The notes under the pieces are model-generated. The model searched no databases and had not been told where the DNA came from. It was given only the letters and a program-made list of their open reading frames with translations. From Oerskovia enterophila (GTDB taxonomy: Bacteria > Actinomycetota > Actinomycetes > Actinomycetales > Cellulomonadaceae), in contig NZ_MAQA01000040.1 of assembly GCF_001692445.1 (NCBI RefSeq), positions 1-43,880 on the forward strand: a stretch of 43,880 nucleotides of DNA. Direction: 5' to 3'. Shown piece after piece: positions 10,683 through 25,426 of the stretch. Both the position numbers and the translations under genes were made by a program. Within the stretch, counting starts at the first letter, position 1, and every line of letters begins with the position of its first letter.

Positions 10683-10704
10683 GCACCAGGTTCCGGGTCG
10701 GGTC

Positions 10705-10721
10705 TGCGCATAGGGGCGTGC
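10705..10721 (+). promoter_or_regulatory. CATAGG leaderless promoter, site 1
   Basis: TCTGCGCATAGG ends at 10714, exactly 7 nt before the GTG at 10722, with no separate ribosome site. This is one of eight CGCATAGG sites between 10.7 and 24.5 kb. The spacing is that of a -10 element for a transcript starting at the initiation codon. Confidence 0.65.
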
Positions 10722-11996
10722 GTGGACCCGACTCGCCCCCTGCCCCGCAACCCGATCACCGCCGTCCTGGCCCTGGGCCTGATCGCGGTGATGTTGTTCT
10801 TCCCTGACCCCGCCACCGTGGTCGCGGAGGCCTCGCCCGAGCAAGACGCCGGCCAGGAGACGACTGAGGCACCCGCACCTCAGGTCGTGGTTCCCGACGA
10901 CGTCACCCAGCTCGCACCCGACCCACCGGTCACCGTCGTCCCGGCCCCGACCCCCGAGCCGGTCCCCGCCACCAGCACCGCCACCGGCACGACGGGCGGC
11001 TCCGTCTCCGGAACGTCCAGTGCGCCGCGGTCCACCGGCGTGGCGTCCGAGTCGCCGGCCGGTCCTGGACCCACCGTCACCGTCTTCATGGCTCCGGGCG
11101 CTGCGGACTCCGGCGACGGGCTCAGTCCTGGCACCGCGGTCGGGTCGTTCGCTCGCGCCCAGCAGGTGGCGAAGTCCGCGGGCGGGGCCGGGGCGAACAT
11201 CGACGTGCGCATCGCCGCAGGCACGTACCGCCTCACGCCCAGCACGTGGTCCCTGGCCTCCCCCGGCCACCGCATCCGCTTCCTCCCCCAGGACTACGTC
11301 GAGGGCCAGGCGCTGCCCGTGGCCCAGGTCCCGGTCTTCGACGGGTCCGGGCTCGGTGGGACGTACTGGCTCGACATCCTCGCCCCTGGCGCCGAGACGA
11401 CGTATGACGTTCGGTCCCTGACCGTCACGGGGTACTCGAACGGGCTGCGGATCTCCGGCGGGTACTCCTACAAGGGTGGCCCGGCGGAGCGCGCGAGCGG
11501 CGAAGGACGCCCCCTGCCCCGCCCCACGGTCACCGGCATGACGTTCGAGCGGATCGGCTCAGCCCACTCCGCCAAGACGGGGTACGCCGCCATCCACGTG
11601 CAGAACACCGACGGCGCCCGCGTCGTGGCCAACACGCTGCACCGCATCGAGAACTCGGGCGCCCAGGCCGGGCTCGTGCACGGGATCTACGCCGTCCTGT
11701 CCACCGGCCTGGACGTGCGGGGCAACACGATCTCGAAGGTCTCCGGGGATGCGGTGCGCACCCGCAACGCCAGCTCGGGCTCGGTCACCGGCAACACGAT
11801 CGAGGCATCTGGGGTGCACGCCGCGGTCTCCGACTGGTTCTGCGACCAGGCGTGCGCGGCCAAGAACGTCCAGTCCTTCGAGTGCCCCTCGGGCCCGGTC
11901 GACGTCGCCAACAACGTCGGGACCCGCTACGCCGGGGGCCAGCTCAAGGCGTACGAGGTCACGGTCTCCCCGTCCGGTGCGAGCTCGGGCTGCTGA
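10722..11996 (+). CDS. Exported right-handed beta-helix protein
   Basis: The protein has 424 residues. A membrane or signal segment lies at residues 12-28 (ITAVLALGLIAVMLFF), followed by a Pro/Thr/Ala/Glu-rich linker to about 110. The domain from about 115 to the end has the rhythm of a parallel beta-helix (GDGLSPGTAVGSFARAQ near its start, then repeats such as VVANTLHRI, VRGNTISKV, VTGNTIEAS). Such folds bind or cleave polysaccharides or serve as surface spikes; catalytic residues cannot be assigned. Cysteines near the C-terminus (FCDQAC, FEC, SGC) could form disulfides. The GTG start is fixed by the 7-nt spacing to CATAGG. Expected on the cell surface; its role on a mobile element (contact or attachment) is inference. 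Confidence 0.8.
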   Translation: MDPTRPLPRNPITAVLALGLIAVMLFFPDPATVVAEASPEQDAGQETTEAPAPQVVVPDDVTQLAPDPPVTVVPAPTPEPVPATSTATGTTGGSVSGTSSAPRSTGVASESPAGPGPTVTVFMAPGAADSGDGLSPGTAVGSFARAQQVAKSAGGAGANIDVRIAAGTYRLTPSTWSLASPGHRIRFLPQDYVEGQALPVAQVPVFDGSGLGGTYWLDILAPGAETTYDVRSLTVTGYSNGLRISGGYSYKGGPAERASGEGRPLPRPTVTGMTFERIGSAHSAKTGYAAIHVQNTDGARVVANTLHRIENSGAQAGLVHGIYAVLSTGLDVRGNTISKVSGDAVRTRNASSGSVTGNTIEASGVHAAVSDWFCDQACAAKNVQSFECPSGPVDVANNVGTRYAGGQLKAYEVTVSPSGASSGC

Positions 11997-11997
11997 C

Positions 11998-12327
11998 TCA
12001 GTCCCCGCACGTCTGGCACAGGCAGAACCGGTGCGGGACGGGCATCGCGATGTCGTCCAGGTCCAGTCCGCTGTTGGCTGCGACGGTCGCCGTGCGCAGG
12101 ACGTCACGCACCACCGAGCGTCGCTCGATGCGGCCCGAGCCGCGGCGCGAGTGCGGCTGCCGGGACGCCCAGCGTGCTGCTACCGGGAAGCACCGAGCCT
12201 CGGGCGACAGGCACGAGACCTGGCGCAGCGGCAGGACGCGCCAGTGGCGGTGCTTCGTCTCCACAGCGGTGAACGGCAGGCGGGCGATCTCGACATCGTC
12301 GGGGACGTGGGCATCGGTGCGGGACAT
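11998..12327 (-). CDS. Hypothetical protein with C-terminal CxxC
   Basis: The protein has 109 residues (MSRTDAHVPDDVEIARLPF ... FCLCQTCGD). It is convergent with the beta-helix gene, with stop codons one base apart. Start at 12327 chosen for GGAG 8 nt upstream; an in-frame ATG at 12339 is the alternative. Arg-rich centre and a terminal C-L-C-Q-T-C cluster suggest a metal- or nucleic-acid-binding protein, but no family is recognised. A minus-strand CATAGG site at 12365-12370 places transcription start about 30 nt upstream of the start codon. Confidence 0.65.
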   Translation of the reverse strand: MSRTDAHVPDDVEIARLPFTAVETKHRHWRVLPLRQVSCLSPEARCFPVAARWASRQPHSRRGSGRIERRSVVRDVLRTATVAANSGLDLDDIAMPVPHRFCLCQTCGD

Positions 12328-12364
12328 GTCGGGCTCCATCCTGTGCGTGGATCGGTCACATGCA

Positions 12365-12374
12365 CCTATGCGCA
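12365..12374 (-). promoter_or_regulatory. CATAGG promoter, site 2 (minus strand)
   Basis: CTGCGCATAGG reads on the minus strand with CATAGG at 12370-12365. It points at the gene 11998-12327 and lies back to back with the plus-strand site at 12408, so the two promoters share an approximately 40-bp control region. Confidence 0.55.
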
Positions 12375-12405
12375 GGGGCGAGCCCAGACCTGACCGCACG
12401 GCCCC

Positions 12406-12413
12406 CGCATAGG
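12406..12413 (+). promoter_or_regulatory. CATAGG promoter, site 3, for a short terminated transcript
   Basis: CGCATAGG ends at 12413. By analogy with the leaderless sites the transcript should begin near 12420-12421. It meets a strong terminator at 12482-12533, before the FtsK gene. Confidence 0.55.
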
Positions 12414-12419
12414 TGACGG

Positions 12420-12533
12420 GTGTTGGACGGTTCCGGCGACGGAACCCGATCCGGCGGTCTGTGTGTTCGTGCGCTGTGTCCTCCTCATGGGCCTGGCACC
12501 GGTCTCGGTCGGTGCCAGGCCTGAGGACTTTTT
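12420..12533 (+). ncRNA. Candidate structured small RNA of about 113 nt
   Basis: The segment runs from a CATAGG promoter to an intrinsic terminator and contains a perfect 6-bp hairpin (GGTTCC 12429-12434 with GGAACC 12441-12446). A 34-codon GTG frame at 12420 runs through the terminator stem and is unlikely to be a conventional protein. Because it lies directly in front of the FtsK-type gene, it may be a leader or attenuator controlling read-through into that gene, or a free small RNA such as a copy-control or antisense RNA (inference). Confidence 0.45.
12482..12533 (+). terminator. Strong intrinsic terminator before the FtsK gene
   Basis: TCCTCA (12482-12487) pairs with TGAGGA (12522-12527), and GGCCTGGCACCG (12490-12501) pairs perfectly with CGGTGCCAGGCC (12510-12521). 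The loop is 8 nt and there is a 2-nt bulge. A CTTTTT tract follows immediately (12528-12533), the rare case here of a textbook U-tract. Confidence 0.85.
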
Positions 12534-12584
12534 GCGCATGGACCCCAGAGACGCAGTCCAGGACCACGACACGGAGGCCAAGCG

Positions 12585-15500
12585 GTGGCGATCGAACGCA
12601 TGACGGCGGACCTGCCGGGGGGCTTCGACCCCTCCAAGCACGCCCAGGCGCTGGTCGCGATGGTCGTGGCCAAGCACGGCGAAGGGTGGGAGCTGGAGTC
12701 CATCGACCCGGCCGACTCCACCGCGACGCTGACCCGTCAGGTCGCACTGACCGAGGTCACCGCCGCCCAGCCGACGTCGCGCAAGAAGAGCGCCCCGATG
12801 AAGCAGGTCAACCTGCCGCGAGGGACCAAGCCGTCCGACGGCGACGAGATCTCCGCGCGGTTCGAGGACCAGCACCCCGGGTTCTACCTGACGAGCTTCG
12901 AGCCGTTCCTGGGCCGGGCCGAGCTGACCAAGCTCTCTGACGAGGTGGCCCGGTGCCGCGGCGCCCTGGCCTTGGCCTTGTCGGTCAAGCCGTGGGAGGT
13001 GCAGGTCGGCGAGCGACCCGACGGCGGGTTCCACGTCGCCCTGCCGCACACCTACGTCCCGTCCAAGCACAACGACAAGATGGACGAGGTCGCCACGGTC
13101 GTCGTCGGGCAGGAGGGCTGGTACGTCGACATCGACACCCGGGCCCTGACCGCGGAGATCATCCCCTCGGACCCGCCGACGTTCCCCGCCGTGATCCCGT
13201 ACCCGTTCACCGCACCGAAGTCCGAGAAGGCCTACTGGGAGATCCCCGTGGGGCGCGAACTCGGCCACAACGGAGCCGAGGGCGAGGACCTGGTCCTCGA
13301 CTTCGACGCGACCCCCGGGGCCCTGATCGTGGGCACTGCGGGAGCGGGGAAGGCGCAACCGCTCGACACTCCCATCCCCGTTCCAGTCTCGGACAGGTTC
13401 CCCGACGGCTGGGCAACCATGGGCACCTTGGAGTTGGGAGACCAGGTCTTCACCGGCGGCGGCGAGGTCGCGCTGGTCGACTACCTCTCCCCCATCTCGG
13501 AGCGCGAGGTTCTCATCGTGAAGTTCTCGGACGGCCAGGAAGTGGAGGCCGACGCGGAGCACATGTGGGTCGTCTCCGACGTCGCGAGCAGGATCGCCCA
13601 CGGCGCCAGGGGTGTGAACAAGCGGGCTGCGACGCGCGAGCGCCTCTCGGAACGACTGGATCGCATCTCTCTCCTCGCAGAGGATGCGTGCAAGGTCGCC
13701 GCAGGCGCCAGCCCGCAGGCACTGGGGAGGATGTTTGGACTGAACGAGCAGAAGGTTCGCGTCATCGCGCAGAACGCCGGCCTGCCGTTCATCTTGGCGT
13801 CAGGGTCTGGGTCTGCGCGCATCTACCCGGTGGATGAGTTCGCGCTGGCGTACCGCGATCACGAGACAGCGAAGACCAACGGACAGTCGGCGCGGGCGCG
13901 TCGGCTTCCGGAGACGAGGATCGTCACCACGACCGAGCTCCTGGCAGAACAGACCGGCGCGGGAGAGCGCAATGAGTTCGCGGTGCGGGTCGCCCCGGCC
14001 ATCGACACCAAGGAAGCAGATCTCCCCATCGACCCGTACCTGCTAGGTGCGTGGCTCGGGGACGGCACCGCCCGCAACGGCGGCGTAACGGTGGGCGACG
14101 CTGACCTCGTTGAGATGCGGGCGCTGCTTTCGCAGGCGTGGGGCCCGTCTCGCGTTCGCGTCGAGACCCGAGGCGGCTCCTCCGCCGTCTCCCTGCATTT
14201 TGGACGCCCCGACGTCACTGCCTGCCTGAACGGCCACTACGACTGGGTCCCTGTCGAAGGTCACTCGCCGTACTGCCGCACCTGCCGGGTCACGCGTTCC
14301 AGCTCGACGAGGTTCGCGCGCAACGCGACCTTCTCGATGCATCTGCGAGACGCGGGGCTCTACCGCAACAAGCACATCCCGGCGCTCTATCTACGTGCAT
14401 CCCGCGAGCAGCGCCTCGCCCTGCTTCAAGGCCTCATGGACACTGACGGCACGGTCAACAAGGCCGGACAGTGCGAGTTCGCCGTCTGTGACGAGCGCCT
14501 CGCCCGCCACGCACTCCAGCTCGTGCGCTCACTGGGCATCAAGGCCTCGATCACGATGAACGACGCCGCTCTCACTGAGCCTGACCCGACCAGACCGGGC
14601 TCGAAGCGGCGCCGTGTCGTCGGCGTGCGGCACCGAGTGAAGTTCACGACGGACGAGGTCGTGTTCCGACTCCCACGCAAGCGTGCCCGTCTCCACTCCA
14701 AAGGTTCGATGCGCCCAACGTCGCGATGGAACTACGTCGTGGGGGTCGAACGGGTCGGCGTGAAGGAGGTCAGGTGCCTGCGCGTGAACCACCCAGAACA
14801 CACCTACCTGACGGGCGAGTTCATCCCTACCCACAACACCGTTGCCATCAACGCGCTCATCGCTGGCGCCCTGGCCCGAGGCTGGGAGCTGTGCCTGGGC
14901 GACGTCCCGCACAAGGCCTTGGACTTCACCTGGGCGAAGAACTACTGCCGCCCCGGGGGGTGGGGATGCGACTCCCCCGAGGCGACCCTGACGATGCTCA
15001 AGCTCGTCTACCAGGAGAAGGACGTGCGCTCGGCCCTGCTCGCCAAGCACGGTGCCCAGAAGCTCCAGGACCTGCCCGAGCACGTACGGCCCAAGCCGAT
15101 CCTGATTGTGCTCGACGAGGTCACCGGGATGTTCGCGTTGGAGCCCGTGCCCAAGGGCGTCCCGAAGGACCACCCGCTCGTCCAGGAACCGCTGGCGAAG
15201 AACCTCATCATCCAGTCGACCGTCGCTACGGTCGCGAAGATCCCCGCCGAGCTGCGGTTCGTGGGGATCAGGGTCATCATCGCGACCCAGATGGCCCAGC
15301 AGAACACCGGCATCGGGGTGCCGCTCAAGACGAACCTGGCGAACCGGATGCTGTTGGGCGCCAACCCGAACGAGCAGGCCCGGGGCCACGCGTTCCTCGA
15401 CCCGCGCTCGGCGCCGCTGGTGCCGGACAACATCAAGGCTGACCGCGCCGCGTCGCGTGGTGTGGGCGTCGCGGAGTTCGAGGGGCGTCCGGCCTCGGTC

Positions 15501-15788
15501 TTCAAGTCGTACTTCGCGACCACCGAGCAGTATTGCGACTACCTGGTGCGCCTGCGCATCTCCACCACACCCAACCCTGCGCCGACCCCGGCGCAGATCG
15601 CGAAGCACACCCCGTCCCTGGACGACTACATGAACGACGAGCGCCCGCCCTCGCGCCTGGACTCCGGCGGCTTCGGGGCGGGCGACGGCCGGGACTCACC
15701 GGACGTCCGGCTGCACGGGGCCGCGGCTGCCGCGCACCAGCTCGCGGTCGAGGCCGCGGAGGCCAAGCGAGGCGAGCAGGCGAAGTGA
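12585..15788 (+). CDS. FtsK/SpoIIIE-type DNA translocase interrupted by an intein
   Basis: The precursor has 1067 residues; the spliced product would be 572. The P-loop is split: GTAGAGK ends at residue 256 and the other half, TVAINALIAG, begins at 752, so excision restores GTAGAGKT. Walker B follows as ILIVLDEV (near base 15,100), then a segment IIATQMAQ typical of FtsK/HerA pumps, and a C-terminal tail rich in Asp, Ser and Ala. The N-terminal 250 residues have no membrane helices, unlike chromosomal FtsK. That fits a mobile-element transfer or partition ATPase of the actinomycete TraB/FtsK type (family knowledge); the precise role is inferred. The GTG start has GGAGG 7 nt upstream. A small terminated transcript ends just before the gene. 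Confidence 0.88.
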   Translation: MAIERMTADLPGGFDPSKHAQALVAMVVAKHGEGWELESIDPADSTATLTRQVALTEVTAAQPTSRKKSAPMKQVNLPRGTKPSDGDEISARFEDQHPGFYLTSFEPFLGRAELTKLSDEVARCRGALALALSVKPWEVQVGERPDGGFHVALPHTYVPSKHNDKMDEVATVVVGQEGWYVDIDTRALTAEIIPSDPPTFPAVIPYPFTAPKSEKAYWEIPVGRELGHNGAEGEDLVLDFDATPGALIVGTAGAGKAQPLDTPIPVPVSDRFPDGWATMGTLELGDQVFTGGGEVALVDYLSPISEREVLIVKFSDGQEVEADAEHMWVVSDVASRIAHGARGVNKRAATRERLSERLDRISLLAEDACKVAAGASPQALGRMFGLNEQKVRVIAQNAGLPFILASGSGSARIYPVDEFALAYRDHETAKTNGQSARARRLPETRIVTTTELLAEQTGAGERNEFAVRVAPAIDTKEADLPIDPYLLGAWLGDGTARNGGVTVGDADLVEMRALLSQAWGPSRVRVETRGGSSAVSLHFGRPDVTACLNGHYDWVPVEGHSPYCRTCRVTRSSSTRFARNATFSMHLRDAGLYRNKHIPALYLRASREQRLALLQGLMDTDGTVNKAGQCEFAVCDERLARHALQLVRSLGIKASITMNDAALTEPDPTRPGSKRRRVVGVRHRVKFTTDEVVFRLPRKRARLHSKGSMRPTSRWNYVVGVERVGVKEVRCLRVNHPEHTYLTGEFIPTHNTVAINALIAGALARGWELCLGDVPHKALDFTWAKNYCRPGGWGCDSPEATLTMLKLVYQEKDVRSALLAKHGAQKLQDLPEHVRPKPILIVLDEVTGMFALEPVPKGVPKDHPLVQEPLAKNLIIQSTVATVAKIPAELRFVGIRVIIATQMAQQNTGIGVPLKTNLANRMLLGANPNEQARGHAFLDPRSAPLVPDNIKADRAASRGVGVAEFEGRPASVFKSYFATTEQYCDYLVRLRISTTPNPAPTPAQIAKHTPSLDDYMNDERPPSRLDSGGFGAGDGRDSPDVRLHGAAAAAHQLAVEAAEAKRGEQAK
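13353..14837 (+). other. Class 3-type intein with LAGLIDADG endonuclease, inserted in the FtsK P-loop
   Basis: The intein spans 495 residues (257-751). It begins with Ala, not Cys/Ser, in AQPLDTPIPVP, and ends FIPTHN followed by Thr752. The residues defining class 3 inteins are present: Trp328 in the block B HMWV, Cys731 in VRCLRV (block F) and Thr749 in THN (block G). A LAGLIDADG homing endonuclease is visible: LLGAWLGDG (about residue 485) and LLQGLMDTDG (about 613). Between them lies a Cys/His cluster (C-x3-H ... C-x2-C, near residues 546-566) that may bind zinc. The nearest point of insertion is directly after the P-loop lysine, the most conserved position of the host gene, as is usual for inteins. 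Confidence 0.9.
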
Positions 15789-15941
15789 CAAACCCCCGCA
15801 TTGGGGTCGACCAAACCGCGAGCGAACTGAGACACTCGTCTTGATCCGGCCGGGGTGCCGGCAGGACCACGTGCTGGGCTGGGGCGCCGCGTTTGTCGTG
15901 GACACGGTGCCCTTCCCCTTGCCCGCTGTGAGGCCCGTTGC

Positions 15942-15956
15942 CGCATAGGTGCGGGC
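15942..15956 (+). promoter_or_regulatory. CATAGG leaderless promoter, site 4
   Basis: CCGCATAGG ends at 15949, exactly 7 nt before the ATG at 15957. No ribosome site is otherwise apparent. Confidence 0.6.
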
Positions 15957-16775
15957 ATGAACCTTGCACCGGACCCGACTCGCCCCGCCGTACGTGCCCG
16001 ACCCGTCATCGGCGTCGGATGGCTGGCCCGCGCCGGCAAGGACTCGGTCGCCTCCATCCTCGTGCGCGACTTCGGGTTCTCCCGGTACGCGTTCGCCGAC
16101 CAGATGAAGGAAGCCCTGGCCGGCCTGGACCCGTTCCTGGACGGGACCACGACGGTCTCTACCGCGGGCGGGATCGACGTGGCCTCCCGCGGGCGCACCA
16201 CCGGCGCCGAGGTCGAACGGCTGCGCGAGTCGCTCTCGACGCTGGTGCTGCCTGACTGGCTCGGGTTCCCCGACGTCGACGCCGCGACCGTCGACGCCAT
16301 CATCACGTCGCTGGACCCGCGCCTGGACGGCACCTCGACCCTCTCGGACCGGATCGACGCCGACGGGTGGGAGGGTGCCAAGAAGCACCGCGTCTACGCC
16401 AGCGAGGTCCGCGGTCTCATGCAGCGCTTCGGGACGGACGCGATCCGCGGACACCTCGGGGATGACGTGTGGGTCCGGGCGCTGGAACGCGCACTGGTCC
16501 AGGACGAGTCCCTCGGCGGGGTGTACCCGGTCGTGATCTCGGACGTGCGTGCGCGGGTCGAGGCCCAGTGGGTCCACGCCCAGGCAGGCACTGTGTGGGA
16601 GGTGCGCCGTCCCGGCATCGTCGCGGTCAACGCCCACTCCTCCGAGTTCGGTCTGCCGAGCTCGATGGTCGACGGCGTGATCGAGAACTCGGGCACCCTC
16701 GACGACCTGGCCCAGACCGTCGCGACCCTGGTCAACGCGACCTTCGGTGCCTCCCCCGCTCGCGCCGCGGCCTGA
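15957..16775 (+). CDS. Deoxynucleoside monophosphate kinase-like protein
   Basis: The protein has 272 residues. The opening VIGVGWLARAGKDSVASIL is a P-loop of the form G-x5-GKDS followed by FADQMKEAL, the pattern of phage T4 gp1-type dNMP kinases (FADxxK after the first strand). A later VVISDVRARVEAQWV segment matches the family's D-V-R motif and is followed by VWEVRRPG. These enzymes phosphorylate dNMPs to dNDPs with ATP. The protein is longer than a minimal kinase because of an insertion around residues 75-135. The start is fixed by the CATAGG spacing; the frame is open further upstream but without a ribosome site. Cytosolic; would support element replication (inference). Confidence 0.78.
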   Translation: MNLAPDPTRPAVRARPVIGVGWLARAGKDSVASILVRDFGFSRYAFADQMKEALAGLDPFLDGTTTVSTAGGIDVASRGRTTGAEVERLRESLSTLVLPDWLGFPDVDAATVDAIITSLDPRLDGTSTLSDRIDADGWEGAKKHRVYASEVRGLMQRFGTDAIRGHLGDDVWVRALERALVQDESLGGVYPVVISDVRARVEAQWVHAQAGTVWEVRRPGIVAVNAHSSEFGLPSSMVDGVIENSGTLDDLAQTVATLVNATFGASPARAAA

Positions 16776-16814
16776 GCGCACACCACCCCCGAACCTCACC
16801 GCACAGGAGCGATC

Positions 16815-17327
16815 ATGCAGATCACCTTCGACCCCGCCCAGTCCGCAGCCCCTGCACGTCCCAGCGGCGGCGCCTGGCCCTTCAGCCTGGTCACCGCGAC
16901 CACCACCATCGTGGCCGAGTCCATCACCGAGCTCGTCGCGCACCTGGTCGGCGAGACGTACGTCGGGCTCGACGACGACCAGGCGCTGCTGGCCCGCTAC
17001 GACGCGGCCTGCACGATCGCGGGCATGACCCAGGCGCTGTACTGCGAGACCGCGCTGGACCCCGCGGCCGAGACCGAGGAGACCCTGACGCCCCTACTCA
17101 GCGACCGCGGCCAGGGCGCCGTCGAGTTGCAGTGGCCGTGGACCCACGAGATCCCGCTGGTGCTGGTGCGGACCGACTACGAGCCGTTCACCGAGACGAG
17201 CGCCCCCGGGGGCAACGTCGTCTTCGTCGACCCGTCGCATGAGCGCGTGTTCCTGGAGTCGCTGGACCGCTTCGGCTTCGTCTCGTTCCTGGTCCACCAG
17301 CCACTTAGCAAGGGGTTCAGCGGGTGA
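16815..17327 (+). CDS. Hypothetical protein
   Basis: The protein has 170 residues (MQITFDPAQSAAPARPSGG ...), with the ATG preceded by AGGAGC at good spacing. It is mixed alpha/beta with an acidic middle and an aromatic C-terminal half (VELQWPWTHEIPLVLVRTDY, NVVFVDPSHERVFLESLDRFGF). There is no signal peptide, membrane helix or recognised motif. It lies 39 nt downstream of the dNMP kinase and is probably transcribed with it from the CATAGG promoter at 15944. Function unknown. Confidence 0.72.
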   Translation: MQITFDPAQSAAPARPSGGAWPFSLVTATTTIVAESITELVAHLVGETYVGLDDDQALLARYDAACTIAGMTQALYCETALDPAAETEETLTPLLSDRGQGAVELQWPWTHEIPLVLVRTDYEPFTETSAPGGNVVFVDPSHERVFLESLDRFGFVSFLVHQPLSKGFSG

Positions 17328-17331
17328 CTTT

Positions 17332-17359
17332 GGGACGTTCCCAGCAGGTTCACCCACGA
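17332..17359 (+). promoter_or_regulatory. Candidate ECF-like promoter, GGGAC-N17-CCACGA
   Basis: GGGAC 17332-17336 and CCACGA 17354-17359 are separated by 17 nt, as at 229 and 24795. The predicted start near 17366 leaves a leader of about 54 nt before the ATG at 17420. Confidence 0.5.
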
Positions 17360-17419
17360 ACTATGCATGCAGACGAGGAGTCCGCAAAGAGACTGACTAC
17401 AACTCACGAGGAGCACACC

Positions 17420-18448
17420 ATGAGCACGGACACTGACACGACCGAGACCGTCGAGCTTTCAGCCGTCGCGGCCAAGCCCCGCCGGCGCACGCGCGCCTTC
17501 ATCGCGATCGGCGTCGCGGCGACCCTCATCGCGGGCGGATTCACCATCACCCAGGTGGCCAGCGCCCGTGAGGCTGCCGCCGTCGAGTTCGCGCAGGCCG
17601 AGAAGACCTACGACGAGCTGGCTTCGGTCGCCTCGGCCCAGGTCCGCACCGCCGAGCGCTTCGGAGTCGACACCTCAGCGGTGACCAAGCTCCTGGCGCA
17701 GGGCTCCTCGCTGGACGCGACGGCCGAGTTTCGCGCTGCGATCACCGCCCTGACAGCAGCTCGTTCTGCGCTGGCGACCGAGATCGGCCTGGCCCGTGTC
17801 GAAGCCTCCGCGCTGGCGGAGGCTGTGGCTGCCCACCAGGGCGCCAAGGCTGAGCTGGACGCCCTGATCGCCTCGGCCCAGGGTGCGCTCGACGGTGCGC
17901 CGAACGCTGAGGCGGGCCTTCGTGACGCGCTGGCGGCGGGGATCACCGCAGCCTCGCAGGCGTCCGCTGTCGAGGTCGCCGGCGTCTCCACCGACGTCGG
18001 CGCCCAGAGCGCGGCCATCGTGGCGGCGCGTGACGCGCTCGCTCCCCTGGTCGAGCCGGTGACCGCATCGCAGGGTGCGTGGCAGGCGGCGGAGGACCAG
18101 CGGGTCGCGGCCGAGCAGGCTGCGGCAGCTGAGCAGGAGGCGGCTCGTCAGCGGGCGGCCGCCTCGACCGGTGGCTCCACCGCGAAGTCGGGCACCAGCA
18201 CCAAGTCGGGTACGACCGGTGGCTCGACAGCGAAGTCAGGCGGCAGCGGCACCAAGTCCGGTACGTCCGGCGGTACGTCCGGCGGTACGTCGAGCGGGTC
18301 GGGTTCGGGTACGAAGAAGCCGACCGTGCCGGTCACCCCGCCCAAGGGCGGCGGCAGCACCGGTGGTGGAAGCAGCGGTGGTGGCGGCGACATCAGCGTC
18401 GACACCTGCTTCGGCGGTGGCGGCTCGGGCGACTCCAACCAGTGCTGA
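17420..18448 (+). CDS. Membrane-anchored Ala-rich coiled-coil protein with Gly/Ser/Thr-rich tail
   Basis: The protein has 342 residues, with the ATG preceded by GAGGAG. A basic cytoplasmic N-terminus (KPRRRTR) precedes one membrane helix (FIAIGVAATLIAGGFTITQV, about residues 32-51). A long Ala/Glu-rich helical region follows to about 255, then a low-complexity region of repeated G-S-T-A-K-S-G and T-S-G-G units, and a Cys-containing end (DTCFGG ... DSNQC). This design (anchor, stalk, flexible tail) suits an extracellular spacer or wall-spanning protein. The repeated GGTACGT-type codons in the tail are a likely site of length variation. It sits directly upstream of the thioester adhesin and ends at a strong terminator. 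Confidence 0.8.
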   Translation: MSTDTDTTETVELSAVAAKPRRRTRAFIAIGVAATLIAGGFTITQVASAREAAAVEFAQAEKTYDELASVASAQVRTAERFGVDTSAVTKLLAQGSSLDATAEFRAAITALTAARSALATEIGLARVEASALAEAVAAHQGAKAELDALIASAQGALDGAPNAEAGLRDALAAGITAASQASAVEVAGVSTDVGAQSAAIVAARDALAPLVEPVTASQGAWQAAEDQRVAAEQAAAAEQEAARQRAAASTGGSTAKSGTSTKSGTTGGSTAKSGGSGTKSGTSGGTSGGTSSGSGSGTKKPTVPVTPPKGGGSTGGGSSGGGGDISVDTCFGGGGSGDSNQC

Positions 18449-18500
18449 CCACCTGAGCTGCGCGACGGCCAACCGGCCGCACACCCGCTAGGCACGAGCA

Positions 18501-18543
18501 ACGAGACGGCCCGGACCTCCACAGGTTCGGGCCTTCTCTCGTG
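18501..18543 (+). terminator. Intrinsic terminator after the 17420 gene
   Basis: The nested stem consists of ACGAGA with TCTCGT on the outside, GGCCCG with CGGGCC inside, and ACCT with AGGT around a CCAC loop. It has no long U-tract, as is common in actinobacteria. Confidence 0.75.
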
Positions 18544-18570
18544 CCCGCCCGAAATCAGGTGTTCGAGGTT

Positions 18571-18640
18571 TCTGCGCATAGGTGCCGGGGAGGGACCGTG
18601 TGGCCTCCGCTCGTGCTCAAGCACGTGAGCCACATGCCCC
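18571..18640 (+). promoter_or_regulatory. CATAGG promoter plus hairpin leader, first tandem copy (site 5)
   Basis: CTGCGCATAGG (CATAGG 18577-18582) is followed by AGGGACC, CCGCTCGTGC and a CGTGC-TCAA-GCACG hairpin. The block is an imperfect duplicate of 18728-18795, 157 bp downstream. No start codon stands at the leaderless spacing, so its transcript probably reads on through the second copy. Confidence 0.5.
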
Positions 18641-18727
18641 CCGGGCCGTGGTTGGTCTCGGTGCGCGGGTTGCGTCCACCGCCCGCTCACAGGTTCACCC
18701 GGTCTCCGGCCGGGAGCTGCCCGGTTT

Positions 18728-18795
18728 TCTCCGCATAGGGGATGGGTAGGGACCTCGCGGCTTCCGCTCGTGCAACGGCACGAAGGTCGCGCCCC
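18728..18795 (+). promoter_or_regulatory. CATAGG promoter plus hairpin leader, second tandem copy (site 6)
   Basis: CTCCGCATAGG (CATAGG 18734-18739) is followed by the same AGGGACC and CCGCTCGTGC elements and a CGTGC-AACG-GCACG hairpin. The stem is identical to the first copy while the loop differs, which favours a selected RNA structure. The adhesin ATG follows at 18817 with its own AGAAGGA ribosome site, giving a leader of about 70 nt. Confidence 0.55.
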
Positions 18796-18816
18796 GGACC
18801 CAGGAAGAAGGAATCC

Positions 18817-21591
18817 ATGTCTGAGAGGACCGCAAGGCCGCGTGGCGGCCCCGAGAAGCGCCGCCGCGGGGAGAAGATCCTCGCCGGTGTGACGGCAAGC
18901 ACCCTGCTCGGTACTGGCCTGATCGCGGGCCTGGTACCTACGGCTGCTGCTGGCCCAGGTGGAGGCATCAACATCGACCTTCCCTACACGAGCAACCAGG
19001 CCGTCCTCGGTCAGGCCTGGGCTCCGGAGGGCACCCCCGCCGGCACGGCCGTCTACTGCATCCAGGTGACGGAGTACAACCAGCCTGGTGCCGGTGGCGC
19101 GGGCACGATCGGTGCCACCGAGAGCGTCGAGCACCCGACGATGGCGTTCATCTACGCCAACTTCTCGGGCTCCGCTGACCAGGTCACGCAGGCCGCGATC
19201 AGCTACCTCACGCACACGACGTTCGAGCGTGACGGGGCGTACTACGGCGGTGCCGCGAACGCAAAGGCGCAGATCGAGGCGAACACCCCGCAGAACATCA
19301 AGGACCGTGCGGCCGAGCTCGTGGACTCCGCGACCAAGTTCGGCGGCCCGTACACGATGACGGACGCCAGCACCTCGACGGACGACCGCCGCGTGGGCGC
19401 CGTCAACAACGTCGGCGTGCGCGGAGCGTCCGGCAACACGTACATCCCCGGCCTGGACCTGACGGTCACGATGACCGGCCCGGCCGTCTTCGACACCAAC
19501 GGCAACGGCTTCCCCGACGCGGGCGAGACCAACGTCTGGACCGGCAAGAGCACCGATGGCCCACAGTCCCTCCAGTGGGTCTCCACCGGCAACGGTGACG
19601 TCCGGTGGCAGCAGCGCTCCACGGGCTCGCTCCCCAAGACGGTGCTCCTGGCTGCGGCCGGCGCTGGACGTCAGGACGTGGCGTTCCTCGGTCCCCACGA
19701 CCCGTTCTCCATCGTCAGCCCGGAGAAGACCTTCTCGGTCATCTACGACTTCACGCCGACCATCTCCAGCCTCGTCCCGAACAAGTTCACGCCCCGCGGC
19801 ACCGCGCTCACGGACACCGTGACCGTCGGCGCACAGGCGCCGGACCCGTGGATCACTCACGACAGCGCGAAGACCGACCCGGTCGACGTCACCGTCGAGG
19901 GCACGCTCTACGGCCCGTTCACCGAGCCGCAGGATGCCTCGGACGAGGTCCCTGCCGGGGCTCCCGTCGTTGCGACGCGCACCCTGACGTTCGACGGTGC
20001 TGGCACCCAGACCGTCGGCGAGGACATCAACGCCGACGACTCGGGCTACTACACCTGGGTCTGGACCTACGCCCGCGCGAACCAGACGACTGCCGACCAG
20101 CAGTTCCTGCGTCCCGGCAACCAGCCGGGCGGCGCGGACTTCATCACCGACGGGTTCTTCACCGAGGGTGAGGTCATCGTGGGCCAGATGGAGGTCGAGC
20201 TCGCATCCGAGCGCGACAACCAGTTCGTCCTGCCCGACTCCGCCAAGGGCACTCCGATGCTCGCGGCCCAGGCTGACCCGTGGGGTGGCCTCGGCGACTC
20301 CTTGACCGTCACCCTCCCCGAGGGCCAGGTCTGGCTGAAGAACGAGCTCGGCGACCCCGTCGAGTTCCACGCTGACGGCACCCTGTACGGTCCGTTCGAC
20401 GTCCCGACCGCTCCCGGTGAGACCCCCGCCGGCGCACCCGTCGTCGCGACGGAGCGCCTGTCGTTCACCGAGCCCGGCACCAAGCACACCCAGGCCGAGC
20501 ATCAGGCGTTCGCCGAGGGCTTCTACACCTGGGTCTGGACGATCGACAAGGACGCTCAGGACCCCGAGGACAAGGACTTCCTCAAGGAGTCCGTCTCGGA
20601 CATGTTCATGACCGAGCTGGAGACCACCTCGGCCCTGCACACCCTGGAGCACTCCTCGCTCTCGCGTGAGTACAACGTCCACATCGGTGGGCGCGCCTTC
20701 GACACCGTCGACATCGACGGCTTCCCCGCAACCCACACCGAGTTCGAGGGTGAGGGCGGCTGGATCGCCGACGTCGACACCGCCACGGTGAAGGTCTACG
20801 GTCCGTTCGCGGACGAGTTGGTCTTCGACTCGGCTGAGGTGCCTGCTGGCGCCCCGGTCCTGACCGAGCAGGTCATCGACGCCGTCGACGGCACGTTCCG
20901 CATCGGGTGGGGCGAGGGCAACGAGGTCATCCCGACCAAGCCTGGCTACTACGTGTTCGTCTATGAGTTCGAGGGCGACGCCCGCGTGCAGGCGTTCAGC
21001 TCGCCGTTCAACGACGAGATGGAGCGCTTCTTCGTCCCGGGTACGCCCGTGACGCCGGAGGTCCCCAGGACTCCTGAAGAGGTCAAGGTCGTCACGCAGG
21101 CCACCCCCGAGGTCAAGGTCGGCGAGAACTTCGACGACACCGCCAAGGTCACCGGCGACGTCCCCGAGGGCGCCGAGCTCGTCTTCCGCGCCTACGGCCC
21201 CCAGGAGTCGGGCGCGACCCCGGTCTGCACCGGCGAGCCGGTGTTCACCTCCGCGGAGATCCCGGTCACCGGTGAGGGCGACTACAAGTCGGGCACGACC
21301 AAGGTCGACTCGGTCGGCAAGGTCTACTGGGTCGAGACCCTGTACGACGAGTCCGGCGAGGTCCTGCACGAGGGCGAGTGCGGTCTGCCGAACGAGACGA
21401 CGAACGTCGTCGACGGCGGCGGCAACCAGGCTGCGAACACGACCGGCGCGAAGGACCTGGCCAAGACCGGTACCCAGGCGGGTATCGTCGCGGCCCTGGC
21501 CCTGGCGCTGACCGCTGGCGGCATCGCACTGGCCGTCGCTTCCAAGCGTCGCCGCGCGGCGGCTTCTGCCGGTAGCGACCTGGAGGCGTGA
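18817..21591 (+). CDS. Sortase-anchored thioester adhesin with repeated Ig-like domains
   Basis: The protein has 924 residues. The signal peptide is at 1-45 (basic KRRRGEK, then hydrophobic to PTAAA). The N-terminal domain resembles a thioester domain: Cys81 in AVYCIQ and Gln125 in VTQAAISYLTH are the pair that forms an internal Cys-Gln bond in such adhesins and binds host or surface amines covalently (family knowledge). Three or four related Ig-like repeats follow, marked by LYGPF..VPAGAPVVA and YYTWVWTY-type strands (near 365, 525, 670 and 790). The C-terminus is a sorting signal: LAKTGT, hydrophobic helix, then KRRR, the LAxTG class used by actinobacterial sortase E. Transcribed from tandem CATAGG promoters. 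The presence of such an adhesin on a mobile element suggests mating or surface contact (inference). Confidence 0.88.
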   Translation: MSERTARPRGGPEKRRRGEKILAGVTASTLLGTGLIAGLVPTAAAGPGGGINIDLPYTSNQAVLGQAWAPEGTPAGTAVYCIQVTEYNQPGAGGAGTIGATESVEHPTMAFIYANFSGSADQVTQAAISYLTHTTFERDGAYYGGAANAKAQIEANTPQNIKDRAAELVDSATKFGGPYTMTDASTSTDDRRVGAVNNVGVRGASGNTYIPGLDLTVTMTGPAVFDTNGNGFPDAGETNVWTGKSTDGPQSLQWVSTGNGDVRWQQRSTGSLPKTVLLAAAGAGRQDVAFLGPHDPFSIVSPEKTFSVIYDFTPTISSLVPNKFTPRGTALTDTVTVGAQAPDPWITHDSAKTDPVDVTVEGTLYGPFTEPQDASDEVPAGAPVVATRTLTFDGAGTQTVGEDINADDSGYYTWVWTYARANQTTADQQFLRPGNQPGGADFITDGFFTEGEVIVGQMEVELASERDNQFVLPDSAKGTPMLAAQADPWGGLGDSLTVTLPEGQVWLKNELGDPVEFHADGTLYGPFDVPTAPGETPAGAPVVATERLSFTEPGTKHTQAEHQAFAEGFYTWVWTIDKDAQDPEDKDFLKESVSDMFMTELETTSALHTLEHSSLSREYNVHIGGRAFDTVDIDGFPATHTEFEGEGGWIADVDTATVKVYGPFADELVFDSAEVPAGAPVLTEQVIDAVDGTFRIGWGEGNEVIPTKPGYYVFVYEFEGDARVQAFSSPFNDEMERFFVPGTPVTPEVPRTPEEVKVVTQATPEVKVGENFDDTAKVTGDVPEGAELVFRAYGPQESGATPVCTGEPVFTSAEIPVTGEGDYKSGTTKVDSVGKVYWVETLYDESGEVLHEGECGLPNETTNVVDGGGNQAANTTGAKDLAKTGTQAGIVAALALALTAGGIALAVASKRRRAAASAGSDLEA

Positions 21592-21637
21592 GTCTCGTCA
21601 GGTAGGTGCCCGCAGGACTGGGGCGCCTGACCAAGAA

Positions 21638-21672
21638 CCGGGGTGCTGGGCCGAGATGGCCTGGCACCCCGG
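21638..21672 (+). terminator. Intrinsic terminator after the adhesin gene
   Basis: CCGGGGTGC at 21638-21646 pairs with GCACCCCGG ending at 21672. The stem continues through GGCC/GGCC pairing with two G-U pairs and a 5-nt loop, followed by CTCTTT. Confidence 0.75.
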
Positions 21673-21700
21673 CTCTTTGCGTACCCGGGCCCGCGTTCAG

Positions 21701-21715
21701 CGCATAGGTGAGTGC
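21701..21715 (+). promoter_or_regulatory. CATAGG leaderless promoter, site 7
   Basis: CGCATAGG ends at 21708, exactly 7 nt before the ATG at 21716. Confidence 0.65.
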
Positions 21716-23050
21716 ATGAGCCCGAAGGCGCGAGAGTTCACCATGCCCGCTGACGCGGCGGTCGACCTGAGCACGCCACAAGCAGCTCAGGCCGAGACCG
21801 TCCCTGCCCCCACCACCCGGGCAGAGGCCAAGGCCCGTCAGGCCCAGGCGCAGACCGCGGTCCGGCGACGCCCACAGGTGCGCAGGTCCGCGTCGGGGCG
21901 CAGCCCGTCCCACCGTGCCCGCCGCTCGATCCCTGCGCGCCGCGGTGCGGCGTTCGGGGTGAGCCTAGTCATGGTCACCACGCTGGTCGGCGGCGGCTCC
22001 GTGGCCACGCTGGCCGGGGGCGAGGGCTCCCCGAACCCCACGCCGCTCGCGGCGACCCTGGTGCTCGGGGAGGATGCCGCCCAGGGGCAGGCTGACCGCG
22101 ACGAGCGGGTCTGGCTCGATGAGCAGGACCGGGTCGTGGACGCTGCGCAGTCGGTGGCGGTGCGCGGGCAGGCCCTGCGGACCGAGCAGGAGGTGCGCTC
22201 AGACCTTGCGGCACGTGTCGCCGCCGTCGAGTCCTCCGTCATGCAGGCCTCCGCCGCCGCAGACACCCCCGTCCCGCTGGCCCCAGCCTCCCAGGCAGCG
22301 ATCGTGGACGCCGTGGAGGTCGTGACCCCCGTGCAGGTGATCCCGGCCGACCCTGGGCCCCTGCACGACCAGGAACGCCTGGTGCAGGTCGCCGAGCAGG
22401 TCGTGGTCGCCTCGGTGGCCGTGGACGAGCTGCCGATCGAGGACGCGATCGCCGTCGTCGCCTCCATCGAGCTCGCCGAGACCGAACGGCTGGGCGCCGA
22501 GGTCGAGCTGCAACGCCTGGCCGAGGAGGAAGCGGCCCGGGTCGAGGCGGCACGCGTCGAAGCCGAACGGCTCCAGGCCCAGCGCGAGGCCGAGGCCAAG
22601 GCCAAGAAGGACGCGTCCGCCACCACGCCGGCCACAACCTCCCTCCCGACCATCTCGGGCGCCAACGGTCGCCTGAGCCCCAGCCAGCTGTGCCCGATCA
22701 GCTGGGCGCCGAGCTCGCAGATAGCCTGCGCCGCCAGCCAGAGCCTGGACTCGCTCAACGCAGCGTTCGTCGGCGCGTTCGGGCGCAACCTGACGATCTC
22801 CGGCGGATACCGATCCTTCTCCGAGCAGGTCTCGACCAAGGCCATCCGCGGCAAGTGGGCGGCGACCCCCGGCACCTCGAACCACGGCTGGGGTCTGGCC
22901 GTGGATCTCCGCGGCGGCATCAACTCCTTCTCGTCCCCCGAGTACCGGTGGATGAAGGCGAACGCTGCCCGGTTCGGGTTCGTCCACCCGGAGTGGGCCG
23001 AGCCCGGCGGGTCCCTGCCCGAGCCGTGGCACTGGGAGTTCGTGGGCTGA
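21716..23050 (+). CDS. Exported M15-family (VanY-like) D,D-carboxypeptidase / peptidoglycan peptidase
   Basis: The protein has 444 residues. A basic, Arg/Ala-rich N-terminus of about 80 residues precedes one membrane helix (GAAFGVSLVMVTTLVGGGSV). The middle to about 310 is Ala/Glu/Val-rich and probably coiled coil. The C-terminal 120 residues are an M15B domain: YRSFSEQ, then His390 and Asp397 in HGWGLAVDL, and His439 in EPWHWE are the zinc ligands and catalytic site of VanY/DacB-type enzymes. It should cut peptidoglycan stem peptides outside the membrane. In a mobile element this is the expected wall-opening enzyme for DNA transfer or secretion (inference). The start is fixed by CATAGG spacing. 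Confidence 0.87.
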   Translation: MSPKAREFTMPADAAVDLSTPQAAQAETVPAPTTRAEAKARQAQAQTAVRRRPQVRRSASGRSPSHRARRSIPARRGAAFGVSLVMVTTLVGGGSVATLAGGEGSPNPTPLAATLVLGEDAAQGQADRDERVWLDEQDRVVDAAQSVAVRGQALRTEQEVRSDLAARVAAVESSVMQASAAADTPVPLAPASQAAIVDAVEVVTPVQVIPADPGPLHDQERLVQVAEQVVVASVAVDELPIEDAIAVVASIELAETERLGAEVELQRLAEEEAARVEAARVEAERLQAQREAEAKAKKDASATTPATTSLPTISGANGRLSPSQLCPISWAPSSQIACAASQSLDSLNAAFVGAFGRNLTISGGYRSFSEQVSTKAIRGKWAATPGTSNHGWGLAVDLRGGINSFSSPEYRWMKANAARFGFVHPEWAEPGGSLPEPWHWEFVG

Positions 23051-23067
23051 GGTCGCCCGTTCGCCCT

Positions 23068-23102
23068 GGGACTTACCTGGAGCAGCGCCCCACTCTGAGG
23101 TC
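23068..23102 (+). promoter_or_regulatory. Candidate ECF-like promoter, GGGAC-N17-CCACTC
   Basis: GGGAC 23068-23072 and CCACTC 23090-23095 are 17 nt apart. CCACTC ends 7 nt before the ATG at 23103, the same leaderless geometry as the CATAGG sites. Confidence 0.5.
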
Positions 23103-24224
23103 ATGACGACCACGGCGAGCGCACCGATCGAGACCTTCACCGCACACTGGTGCCCGCAGGACGAGAAGATCGTCGAGCCGGTCGTCGTGTACGAGTGCTC
23201 GCGCTGCGGTGAGCGGTCCGACGAGCGCCGCTGCCCGACCGACAACATCTTCGCCGCTCGCGTCGAGTCCCCCGGCTGCTCCGAGTGCTTCGACGACGTC
23301 GAGGAGATCGAGGCCGTCACCGATCACGACGGCGAGACCGTCCGCGTCGAGGACTATGACCCGCAGGGCGCCTCCCTCGTCGAGCGCGACGCTGTGGCTC
23401 GCGCCCAGGCCTCCGCCGCCCAGGCTGAGCGGGTCGCTGAGAAGACCCGCGAGCTGGACGGGCGCGCGGTGACCAAGGCGTGGAGCGAGGTCCGCCCCGG
23501 CGACGAGATCCTCGTCCCATCCAACATCGGCTCCCTGCCCCCCGACGAACTGGGCGTCTACGCGGTCGAGGTCGCAGGTCCCGGCGCCCTGGGCGTCGAG
23601 CCCGGGTCCGTGATCGCGTTGCTCGACCGGTACGGGCTGCGCGTCGAGGTGCACGCACCCGACGACCAGGCGCGCGTCATCGTCGAGCCGATGGACCCCC
23701 AGAACCCCGAACTGTCCCCCGTCTCCGAGCGCATCACCGTCGGCCCCGCCATGGTGCACGGCTCCTCCGGGCACCGGCACATCATGCTGCGCCTGGGCAA
23801 GGGTGAGCGCACGACGTACGGCCGCGCCCCGGTCGCCGTCCTGTACGGCTCGTCCTCCCCCACCTCCAATGGGATGGGGAACCTGGGCGCCTTCATCGAC
23901 CCCCGCGAGGCTCGCGCCTACGCGGACGCTGCCCGCGTCGCGGCCGAGCACCTGGCCCTCGACGGCGGTCGCCGCGACTACGACGACGACGTCAGCACGG
24001 AGGTCTCCGACGAGGCGTACATGACCGCCAACCTCTCGCGCTGGGTGCGGTTCGCCCTCGGGACCGACATGGACCAGGACACCACCCAGATCATCCTGGA
24101 GCAGGAGAAGGGGCGCGGCTCGTACTCGGCCTGCATCAAGGACAAGGCGGCGATGCTCGCGCTCGTCGACCTGGCCGAGCAAGCCGCAACCTGGCTCGAA
24201 GAGCAGGTCGGGGTCCGAGCCTGA
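23103..24224 (+). CDS. Hypothetical protein with N-terminal Cys-rich zinc-binding region
   Basis: The protein has 373 residues. The first 65 contain CPQDEK, CSRCG, RRCP and CSECF, compatible with one or two zinc-binding knuckles. A predicted beta-rich domain follows (RPGDEILVPSNIG, DELGVYAVEVAGPG) and then a segment resembling conserved mobile-element proteins (HRHIMLRLGKG, VAVLYGS, GAFIDPREARAYADAARVAAEHLA). Its stop codon overlaps the ATG of the next gene (TGATG), so the two are coupled. The ATG is 7 nt after CCACTC. It could be a DNA- or protein-binding factor of the element. Function unknown. Confidence 0.78.
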   Translation: MTTTASAPIETFTAHWCPQDEKIVEPVVVYECSRCGERSDERRCPTDNIFAARVESPGCSECFDDVEEIEAVTDHDGETVRVEDYDPQGASLVERDAVARAQASAAQAERVAEKTRELDGRAVTKAWSEVRPGDEILVPSNIGSLPPDELGVYAVEVAGPGALGVEPGSVIALLDRYGLRVEVHAPDDQARVIVEPMDPQNPELSPVSERITVGPAMVHGSSGHRHIMLRLGKGERTTYGRAPVAVLYGSSSPTSNGMGNLGAFIDPREARAYADAARVAAEHLALDGGRRDYDDDVSTEVSDEAYMTANLSRWVRFALGTDMDQDTTQIILEQEKGRGSYSACIKDKAAMLALVDLAEQAATWLEEQVGVRA

Positions 24225-24505
24225 TGCGCTGCGCCGAGTGCAAGAAGCGGACCGAGCGCCTGGTCCGCGTGGCCAAGTTCGGCGGCGGAAGCTACAACCG
24301 TCCCGGCCGCTGGTACGACCGGAGCATCTGCGAGGGCTGCCTCGACGACGGACTCCGGTTCGCCGACACCGAGATCGAGCGCATCTGGCGCGAGCCGAAC
24401 CGCTTCGCCGGCATGAGCGTGTCGAGCCTGCGCAGGGCCAAGGCGACGCTCCTGGCCCGCCAGAGGCCCAACGAGCCGGCCGACGGAGCCTCGCGGGCTC
24501 CTTGA
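24224..24505 (+). CDS. Small CxxC-CxxC zinc-ribbon protein
   Basis: The protein has 93 residues (MRCAECKKRTERLVRVAK ...). CAEC at residues 3-6 and CEGC near residue 36 form a likely zinc ribbon. The remainder is basic and helical (IERIWREPNRFAGM, LRRAKATLLARQR). It is translationally coupled to the upstream gene by the TGATG overlap. Such small zinc-ribbon proteins often act as transcription or DNA-binding accessories; no specific family was recognised. Confidence 0.72.
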   Translation: MRCAECKKRTERLVRVAKFGGGSYNRPGRWYDRSICEGCLDDGLRFADTEIERIWREPNRFAGMSVSSLRRAKATLLARQRPNEPADGASRAP

Positions 24506-24521
24506 CGCTCTCGGGCGCCTG

Positions 24522-24538
24522 CGCGCATAGGTGCAGTC
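24522..24538 (+). promoter_or_regulatory. CATAGG leaderless promoter, site 8, with TTGACG
   Basis: CGCATAGG ends at 24531, exactly 7 nt before the ATG at 24539. TTGACG lies 18 nt upstream of CATAGG, the only one of the eight sites with a good housekeeping-type -35. Confidence 0.65.
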
Positions 24539-24751: not shown

Positions 24752-24794
24752 CCCCGCCAGCGCCCGGTCGTCCGGGCCCGAACTGAACCCGTCG

Positions 24795-24822
24795 GGGACT
24801 TTCCTCGCGACCCGCCCCACGA
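24795..24822 (+). promoter_or_regulatory. Candidate ECF-like promoter, GGGAC-N17-CCACGA
   Basis: GGGAC 24795-24799 and CCACGA 24817-24822 have the invariant 17-nt spacing. The predicted start is about 24829, just before a leader hairpin. Confidence 0.5.
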
Positions 24823-24833
24823 GCCGGGCGCAA

Positions 24834-24856: not shown

Positions 24857-24878
24857 GCCGTGACGGAAGGCTCCGATC

Positions 24879-25352: not shown

Positions 25353-25426
25353 CCCAGCCCGCGGGCGCCGCCTCTGCTGCGACCGCCCACGACGCCAGCC
25401 ACCACGACGCGGATCACCGCCGGGAT

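Follow-up and report, generated by a model that had tools for sequence, protein, structure and literature searches.

Mobile replicons with a sigma factor of their own are already known. The Bacillus subtilis plasmid pBS32 encodes SigN (ZpdN), which is described as LexA-repressed and self-activating (PMC6751061). In Mycobacterium tuberculosis, about a quarter of the genes with a primary start site are reported to be leaderless (PMC3898074), and leaderless genes are thus ordinary in actinobacteria. Large integrative elements have been described in this phylum as well, among them BreLI of Brevibacterium (PMC6579920) and RUSTI of Glutamicibacter (PMC5526665). The literature searched, which excluded subscription papers and preprints, yielded no dedicated sigma factor for an actinobacterial integrative element. 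Here we analyze contig NZ_MAQA01000040.1 of the Oerskovia enterophila assembly GCF_001692445.1, 43,880 nucleotides long and hereafter called the window, most of which appears to form the right-hand part of an integrative element whose insertion point is the 3' end of a tRNA-Leu gene. A short motif, CGCATAGG, recurs before its genes. We think it likely that the element has a private sigma-factor regulon whose genes are largely leaderless; a version of this arrangement in an actinobacterial integrative element appears to be new.

The original prediction placed the motif at eight sites between 10.7 and 24.5 kb of the window, and every one is present at its position: 10707, 12406, 15942, 18575, 18732, 21701, and 24524 on the plus strand and 12372 on the minus strand. 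One hundred dinucleotide shuffles of the window gave a mean of 0.57 copies and a maximum of 3; none reached 8. CATAGG by itself is unremarkable (8 copies versus 4.6 expected), and all copies in the window sit inside a CGCATAGG. The source genome (G000) is a 4.65 Mb draft in 114 contigs, in which the window is contig C40. It contains 53 copies, of which 25 are on contig C3, 8 are in the window, and 20 are elsewhere, while the reversed pattern gives 26 matches over the whole genome. Equal frequency in chromosome and element, the outcome named beforehand as refuting the prediction, is not what is seen: 33 copies fall within the ~191 kb of the element and 20 within the other 4.46 Mb, a ~39-fold enrichment by arithmetic that concentrates 33 of 53 copies in ~4% of the genome. 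The system is more than ten times larger than the stretch originally given. A 238-kb chromosome sample contained no CGCATAGG, but this zero is not independent and is unused as evidence, since the sample was drawn almost wholly from contigs already known to lack the site; only its near-match comparison is informative, single-mismatch forms being present in both sample and element.

Element sites lie outside called genes or overlap the final bases of the preceding gene. At the 20 sites outside the element, a start codon with an open frame follows at 8 nt in three cases and at 7 nt in none. One of these sites, C11:157-164, almost duplicates the one at the end of C3 (C3:185398), and the two contig ends have motif-bearing sequence in common; contig C11 may continue the element or carry a second copy of the C3-end stretch. 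The strict form CGCATAGGTNCNGGNATG occurs in 2 of the 149 related genomes searched, the source genome and its congener G001, and megablast of window positions 9400-26000 against plasmid and phage collections found no similar DNA.

How is the motif placed relative to genes? The 7-nt gap to a GTG or ATG predicted for the sites at 10707, 15942, 21701, and 24524 is exact at all four, but it is not invariant, as had been claimed: element-wide, the start codon follows at 7 nt in 16 of 33 sites and at 8 nt in 4 of 33. Nineteen of these 20 starts open a frame of at least 50 codons. Gene calls came from a custom codon-usage script rather than a standard annotator, and the starts at 21716, 24539, and C3:116437 were set by motif distance. 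Of the 13 sites that lack a start at 7-8 nt, one is at a contig end and 12 are separated from the next called gene by 25-677 nt; at some, a GTG follows at 5 nt. The next called gene is preceded by a Shine-Dalgarno match of 4 nt or more, weak evidence in any single case, at 10 of the 13, and by none at 3. On C3 the context of the sites is highly regular, approximately CGCATAGG T N C N G G C ATG. Over all 33 sites, a T directly follows the motif in 25, column 10 is C in 27, and column 13 is G in 29.

A weak -35 box, approximately RAGCYG, lies 13 nt upstream of the motif. Columns -19 to -14 carry 2.22 bits over six columns, versus a maximum of 1.23 among 2000 sets of 33 drawn at random. An expectation-maximization search of the upstream sequence did not separate this box from a second signal, a TTCTG immediately in front of the motif, and codon bias overwhelmed an unbiased search for enriched 8-mers. 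When the start codon is numbered +1, the box falls at about -34 to -29, so that +1 is predicted to lie on the start codon; at 20 of the 33 sites (those with 7-8 nt) the -10 and -35 parts have this leaderless geometry. The motif is not the housekeeping TANNNT, because with TA at columns 4-5 the required T at the sixth base is found in 0 of 33 sites. We would read CGCATAGGTNCNGG as a -10 box and its discriminator, belonging to a dedicated promoter whose weak -35 box sits 13 nt upstream. Most units would then be transcribed from the start codon itself, and the remainder from a point shortly before a Shine-Dalgarno sequence.

The edges of the element can be read directly from the sequence. Window positions 32121-32180 (plus strand) form an attachment-site-like repeat that marks the right edge; 56 of its 60 bases are identical to C3:26967-27026, which comprises the 3' end of a tRNA-Leu(CAA) gene (C3:26920-26995) and the bases that follow. 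One edge is thus on C3 and the other in the window, and their orientations agree. The element spans window position 1 to ~32.17 kb together with C3 from 26.99 kb. In G001, homologues of window 23.3-32.3 kb and of C3 92-115 kb lie together on one 39-kb contig, which shows that the window and C3 carry parts of one kind of element. In the source genome the two presumably make up a single integrative element, at least 190 kb long and split over contigs (C3 contributes 158.6 kb and the window ~32.2 kb), the join between C3 and C40 being deduced. Its attachment repeats at a tRNA 3' end are those of an integrative and conjugative element, and, as judged from edges and gene content, it is probably conjugative. 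The C3 part encodes, by profile matches, a DNA polymerase III alpha subunit and a VanY peptidase, together with a single-stranded DNA-binding protein (SSB), RNase H, a pyridine-nucleotide oxidoreductase, a WhiB-like protein, and a ParA-like ATPase. The window adds a deoxynucleotide monophosphate (dNMP) kinase, a VanY peptidase, and a beta-helix protein. The product of C3:84714-89000 matches AAA_10 over the cut-off (3.4e-10), and two conjugal-transfer ATPase matches fall far below theirs.

What reads this promoter? Pfam Sigma70 region 2 has no match on C3 or C40 (the host genome has 19 Sigma70_r2 matches elsewhere), and a sigma candidate was therefore sought through shared genes. A divergent protein, C3:120751-121596, is common to most element carriers. 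Its gene is carried by 8 of the 11 genomes that show traces of the element, by 8 of 38 Brachybacterium genomes and 3 of 57 genomes of genus g31, and by G000 alone among 394 genomes of the class; the viral contigs searched have none. When AlphaFold models of two homologues were compared with the PDB, sigma chains made up the first 39 rows (47 of the best 50) for one and all of the best 50 for the other; these chains come from RNA polymerase complexes or models and were assigned as sigma by title, chain letter, length, or protein code. Because its sequence matches are below the Pfam cut-off, we term the protein sigma70-like rather than a member of the family. The DxDGD motif of multi-subunit-type RNA polymerases has four open-frame matches on C3, none convincing, and none in the window; T7-type polymerases were not searched for.

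The sigma-like gene is the last of a row on C3 that begins with the ParA-like gene and continues with two conserved proteins, with a gap of ~1 kb after the first gene. At C3:116422 a CGCATAGG site is followed, after 7 nt, by the ATG of the ParA-like frame, which is open for 550 codons. In G114 and G384 the row has the same arrangement, with a GTG 6 nt after CGCATAGA. The row is probably one operon. A comparable start of the Brachybacterium ParA-like gene, 7 nt after GCCCACTG, was dropped, the GTG being out of frame with the open reading frame (ORF). Two copies of the sigma-like gene, ~81-182 kb apart, are present in each of G430, G377, and G300, and in G430 and G300 both copies are in or beside the same motif-rich stretch. 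In Brachybacterium squillarum (L201, positions 8952-10600) the sigma-like gene is truncated beside an apparent transposase gene, which by its look we take to be of the IS30 type.

Promoter and gene are conserved together in related elements. Searching 396 genomes of the order with a 1033-amino acid (aa) element protein (C3:111724-114825) gave matches in 12, G000 and G001 among them; full-length matches outside G001 are ~34-36% identical to the C3 protein. The stretch upstream of its gene was compared in 10 of the 12 genomes; G413 and G258, which hold fragments only, were left out. CGCATAG[GA] stands 6-7 nt before the in-frame ATG in C3, G001, G211, G114, G384, and G288, and GCCCACT[TG] stands 8 nt before it in G430, G377, G466, and G300. 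A form of the motif is seen before the same gene, in frame and with 6-8 nt spacing, in these ten genomes. Further sites in G384 and G114 (genus g31) have a two-part promoter, CGAC[TA]-N14/15-CGCATAG. Genome-wide, this form has 10 matches in G384, six of them in the 36 kb of C23:13-49 kb, 8 in G114 (4 on the element contig), and 8 in G288; the count is 0-3 in each of five comparison g31 genomes and likewise 0-3 per genome for the reversed control, and a genome-wide search of G000 and G001 finds none.

The Brachybacterium form, GTCC-N17-GCCCACT, in which the second part was searched as [GC]CCCAC[TC], has 61 matches versus 6 for the reversed pattern over 12 stretches, with none in the G178 stretch. 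In G300, 41 of 44 genome-wide matches fall in the 160 kb between 822 and 982 kb; in G430, 23 of the 25 listed matches (27 in all) fall between 523 and 711 kb. Total and reversed counts are 27 and 13 in G430, 21 and 7 in G377, 44 and 8 in G300, and 51 and 9 in G825. In three Brachybacterium genomes without the sigma-like gene they are 4 and 2 (G100), 2 and 8 (G204), and 1 and 7 (G348). These elements may form a family of ~160-190 kb in actinobacteria, with private transcription, an undescribed divergent sigma family, and two-part leaderless promoters, whose lineage-specific pairs (CGCATAGG; CGAC-CGCATAG; GTCC-GCCCACT) would prevent cross-activation with co-resident elements and the host; we hold this wider proposal to be an even call.

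Taken together, the element-specific motif, its -35 partner, the predicted presence of both leadered and leaderless genes, and a divergent sigma70-like protein shared with most related elements that have analogous promoters speak for the dedicated -10-type element and variant sigma factor that had been proposed from the window. The reader is most likely host RNA polymerase with the element-made sigma factor of C3:120751-121596. A CGCATAGG site itself heads the probable operon of the sigma gene, which would provide positive feedback, and such feedback implies a switch: once enough sigma factor is made, all units would fire together. Genes for replication, nucleotide metabolism, transfer-like functions, cell-wall cutting, and surface proteins could in this way be switched on jointly.

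Several findings weigh against this reading. G001 keeps six intact motif sites on one contig, and no sigma-like gene was detected in it; this means loss of the gene, an incomplete assembly, or another reader of the sites, and it is the main loose end. The fold scores of the AlphaFold models are middling, and no curated Sigma70 model is matched over its cut-off: Sigma70_r3 alone gives a match, scoring 19.6 bits at residues 228-260 of one of the 12 family members (cut-off 25.3) and 15.2 bits in a 143-aa fragment from G211. Finally, total and reversed counts of the Brachybacterium form are only 5 and 7 in G466 and 11 and 10 in G413, which lowered our confidence by a hair and left the private regulon still likely.

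Might the host supply the sigma factor? The motif could be an element-specific promoter part read by sigmaA or another host sigma factor with the help of an element-encoded activator, such as the WhiB-like protein of C3:111098-111481. That protein is encoded on the element (Pfam Whib, 9.3e-14), its gene is downstream of a CGCATAGG site, all 19 host Sigma70_r2 matches lie outside C3 and C40, and G001 retains motif sites without a detected sigma-like gene. However, the -10 form of sigmaA is missing, its expected T occurring at none of the 33 sites. No host regulon visibly uses the motif, since the 20 sites outside the element are not above the reversed control. Moreover, the examined stretches of G430, G211, G114, and G384 list no match to the WhiB gene, while three of these four have the sigma-like gene. 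We consider a host sigma factor with an activator unlikely, if the most serious of the competing explanations.

An operator for an element-encoded repressor or master regulator, acting over ordinary promoters, would likewise be short, conserved, element-specific, and near starts, but the motif is non-palindromic, has a fixed orientation and a near-fixed distance to the start at most sites, and possesses a -35-like partner, and its Brachybacterium counterpart consists of two parts held rigidly 17 nt apart; an operator is thus improbable. A translation signal, a Shine-Dalgarno variant around AGG, would account for an AGG at the normal distance of 7 nt before ATG and for an AGGTG that matches the anti-Shine-Dalgarno over 5 nt at some sites. 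It leaves unexplained the invariant CGCAT and the -35 box, 13 sites have no start at 7-8 nt (10 of them having a separate Shine-Dalgarno-like sequence), and GCCCACT of Brachybacterium is unlike a Shine-Dalgarno sequence, all of which makes such a signal very improbable. Least probable of all, to the point of being nearly negligible, is chance or a codon-bias artefact of GC-rich sequence. Codon usage does over-represent many 8-mers in these contigs, but no shuffle in 100 reached eight copies, 33 of 53 copies occupy ~4% of the genome, the sites lie outside called genes or over a gene's last bases, and the promoter-gene pair is conserved at 32-36% protein identity. The private sigma-factor regulon is the reading we retain.

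The units of the window can be described under this reading as follows. The promoter core at 10707-10714 (plus strand) precedes by 7 nt the GTG of a predicted leaderless gene for a 424-aa right-handed beta-helix protein (10722-11996, plus; Pfam Beta_helix 4.6e-05, below cut-off). Two divergent cores follow. The minus-strand core at 12365-12372 faces, 25 nt away, an ORF starting at 12339 on the same strand that is weakly supported and has no Shine-Dalgarno match, and the plus-strand core at 12406-12413 would give a 171-nt leader toward 12585-15788 (plus), which encodes a 1067-aa, probably intein-containing ATPase-like protein (LAGLIDADG_3) with homologues in the G114, G384, and G430 elements. 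The core at 15942-15949 (plus) is 7 nt upstream of the ATG of a deoxynucleotide monophosphate kinase gene (15957-16775, plus; Pfam DNMK 1.3e-20), predicted to be leaderless. A near-match, CGCACAGG, at 16800-16807 (plus) lies exactly 7 nt upstream of the ATG of 16815-17327 (plus), a 170-aa protein with weak homologues in G114 (2.5e-5) and G384 (1e-5); it is a probable ninth promoter of the window. A near-match of this kind is seen on C3 as well, where CGCATAGA stands 7 nt before the GTG start of the helicase gene 76423-79983.

A tandem pair of plus-strand cores, distal at 18575-18582 and proximal at 18732-18739, precedes the gene at 18817-21591 (plus), whose ATG is 77 nt beyond the proximal core and is preceded by AAGGA. 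Its 924-aa product, called an adhesin in the original prediction, has no Pfam or PHROG match. The two leaders (window 18591-18816) can be folded into similar hairpins that differ in their paired bases (GUGUGGC/GCCACAU and CGCGGC/GUCGCG), at folding energies no better than those of shuffles (z -1.1 and 0.0). The core at 21701-21708 (plus) is followed after 7 nt by the ATG, at 21716, of a predicted leaderless gene for a 444-aa VanY-type D,D-carboxypeptidase (21716-23050, plus; Pfam VanY 2.2e-14). The last core, at 24524-24531 (plus), has an ATG at the same distance (24539) that opens 70 codons for a predicted leaderless 70-aa small protein (24539-24751, plus); homologous sequence with the same site is present in G001:C21. 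A scan of the window with Rfam gave no match.

Other features of the element deserve mention. LAGLIDADG domains are present in three of its ATPases or helicases (window 12585-15788, C3 84714-89000, and C3 76423-79983) and are probably inteins. PHROG terminase models match these ATPases on or close to the LAGLIDADG stretch, and we did not count such matches toward a phage. A viral origin was likewise rejected. The strict motif is found in 36 viral-contig stretches, with one strict match each and 1-3 CGCATAGG per examined part; many are in genomes of very different composition, and one 112-kb record has two matches. We read these as chance. Many different small C3 proteins have in common an N-terminal tag of the type HPRATDGKFATKPVDEAAGGLS (at ~38.4, 54.5, 59.5, 62.7, 69.1, 94.9-97.9, 99.5-104.3, and 107.5-110 kb), whose counterparts at the DNA level are ~100-bp dispersed repeats also found at ~1.2, 9.5, and 25.9 kb of the window. 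The tag looks like a sorting or co-transfer signal. The 43 kb of C3:122-165 kb are without any CGCATAGG site and are perhaps cargo under host promoters. At ~9.57-9.67 kb of G001:C21, past the right-edge repeat, is an apparent decayed copy of the first gene at the element's left end, with an altered promoter motif, which suggests an earlier tandem insertion.

Why would an element maintain a promoter of its own? With it, the element may run its genes separately from the host, and its leaderless transcripts, if real, need no ribosome site. How a large element stays silent and then expresses ~100 genes jointly is poorly known in actinobacteria, and an element-borne sigma factor with a rigid promoter would make the entire regulon readable from sequence. 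A private promoter would also explain why element genes seem promoterless in scans with standard consensus sequences. The related elements would offer leaderless genes in bulk and a natural set of sigma-promoter pairs, possibly mutually orthogonal, and they suggest that there are sigma factors beyond the reach of current family models.

How does this system compare with those already described? BreLI resembles it in being large and actinobacterial and in encoding DNA polymerase III alpha, SSB, helicases, and partition functions, as well as conjugation genes, which are putative in the present element; it differs in being 96-100 kb long and inserted in a ribonucleotide reductase gene. The 12-bp repeat of BreLI was not found in the stretches searched, and the main text of its report does not contain the word sigma and describes no dedicated sigma factor (PMC6579920). 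RUSTI is likewise actinobacterial and inserted at a tRNA-Leu 3' end, with single-strand-type conjugation genes, but it differs in carrying iron uptake genes, and the main text describing it is also without the word sigma (PMC5526665). The predicted identity of start codon and transcription start is shared with the leaderless genes of M. tuberculosis, in which the -10 is reported to be centred 7-12 bp upstream. There, however, the -10 is TANNNT and no -35 is conserved, whereas the -10 here is CGCATAGGT, accompanied by a -35 box and restricted to a single element (PMC3898074). As described, SigN is likewise a sigma factor of a mobile replicon that serves dedicated promoters there, including those of DNA polymerase III and nucleotide-synthesis genes and of its own gene, but it is weakly ECF-like and is encoded on a Firmicute plasmid, with AT-rich promoters and control by LexA (PMC6751061). 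LexA repression offers a possible model, to be tested, for the trigger of the switch proposed here. Unlike SigN, the present candidate belongs to a chromosomally integrated actinobacterial element, is sigma70-like by predicted fold only, and would act on GC-rich, largely leaderless promoters.

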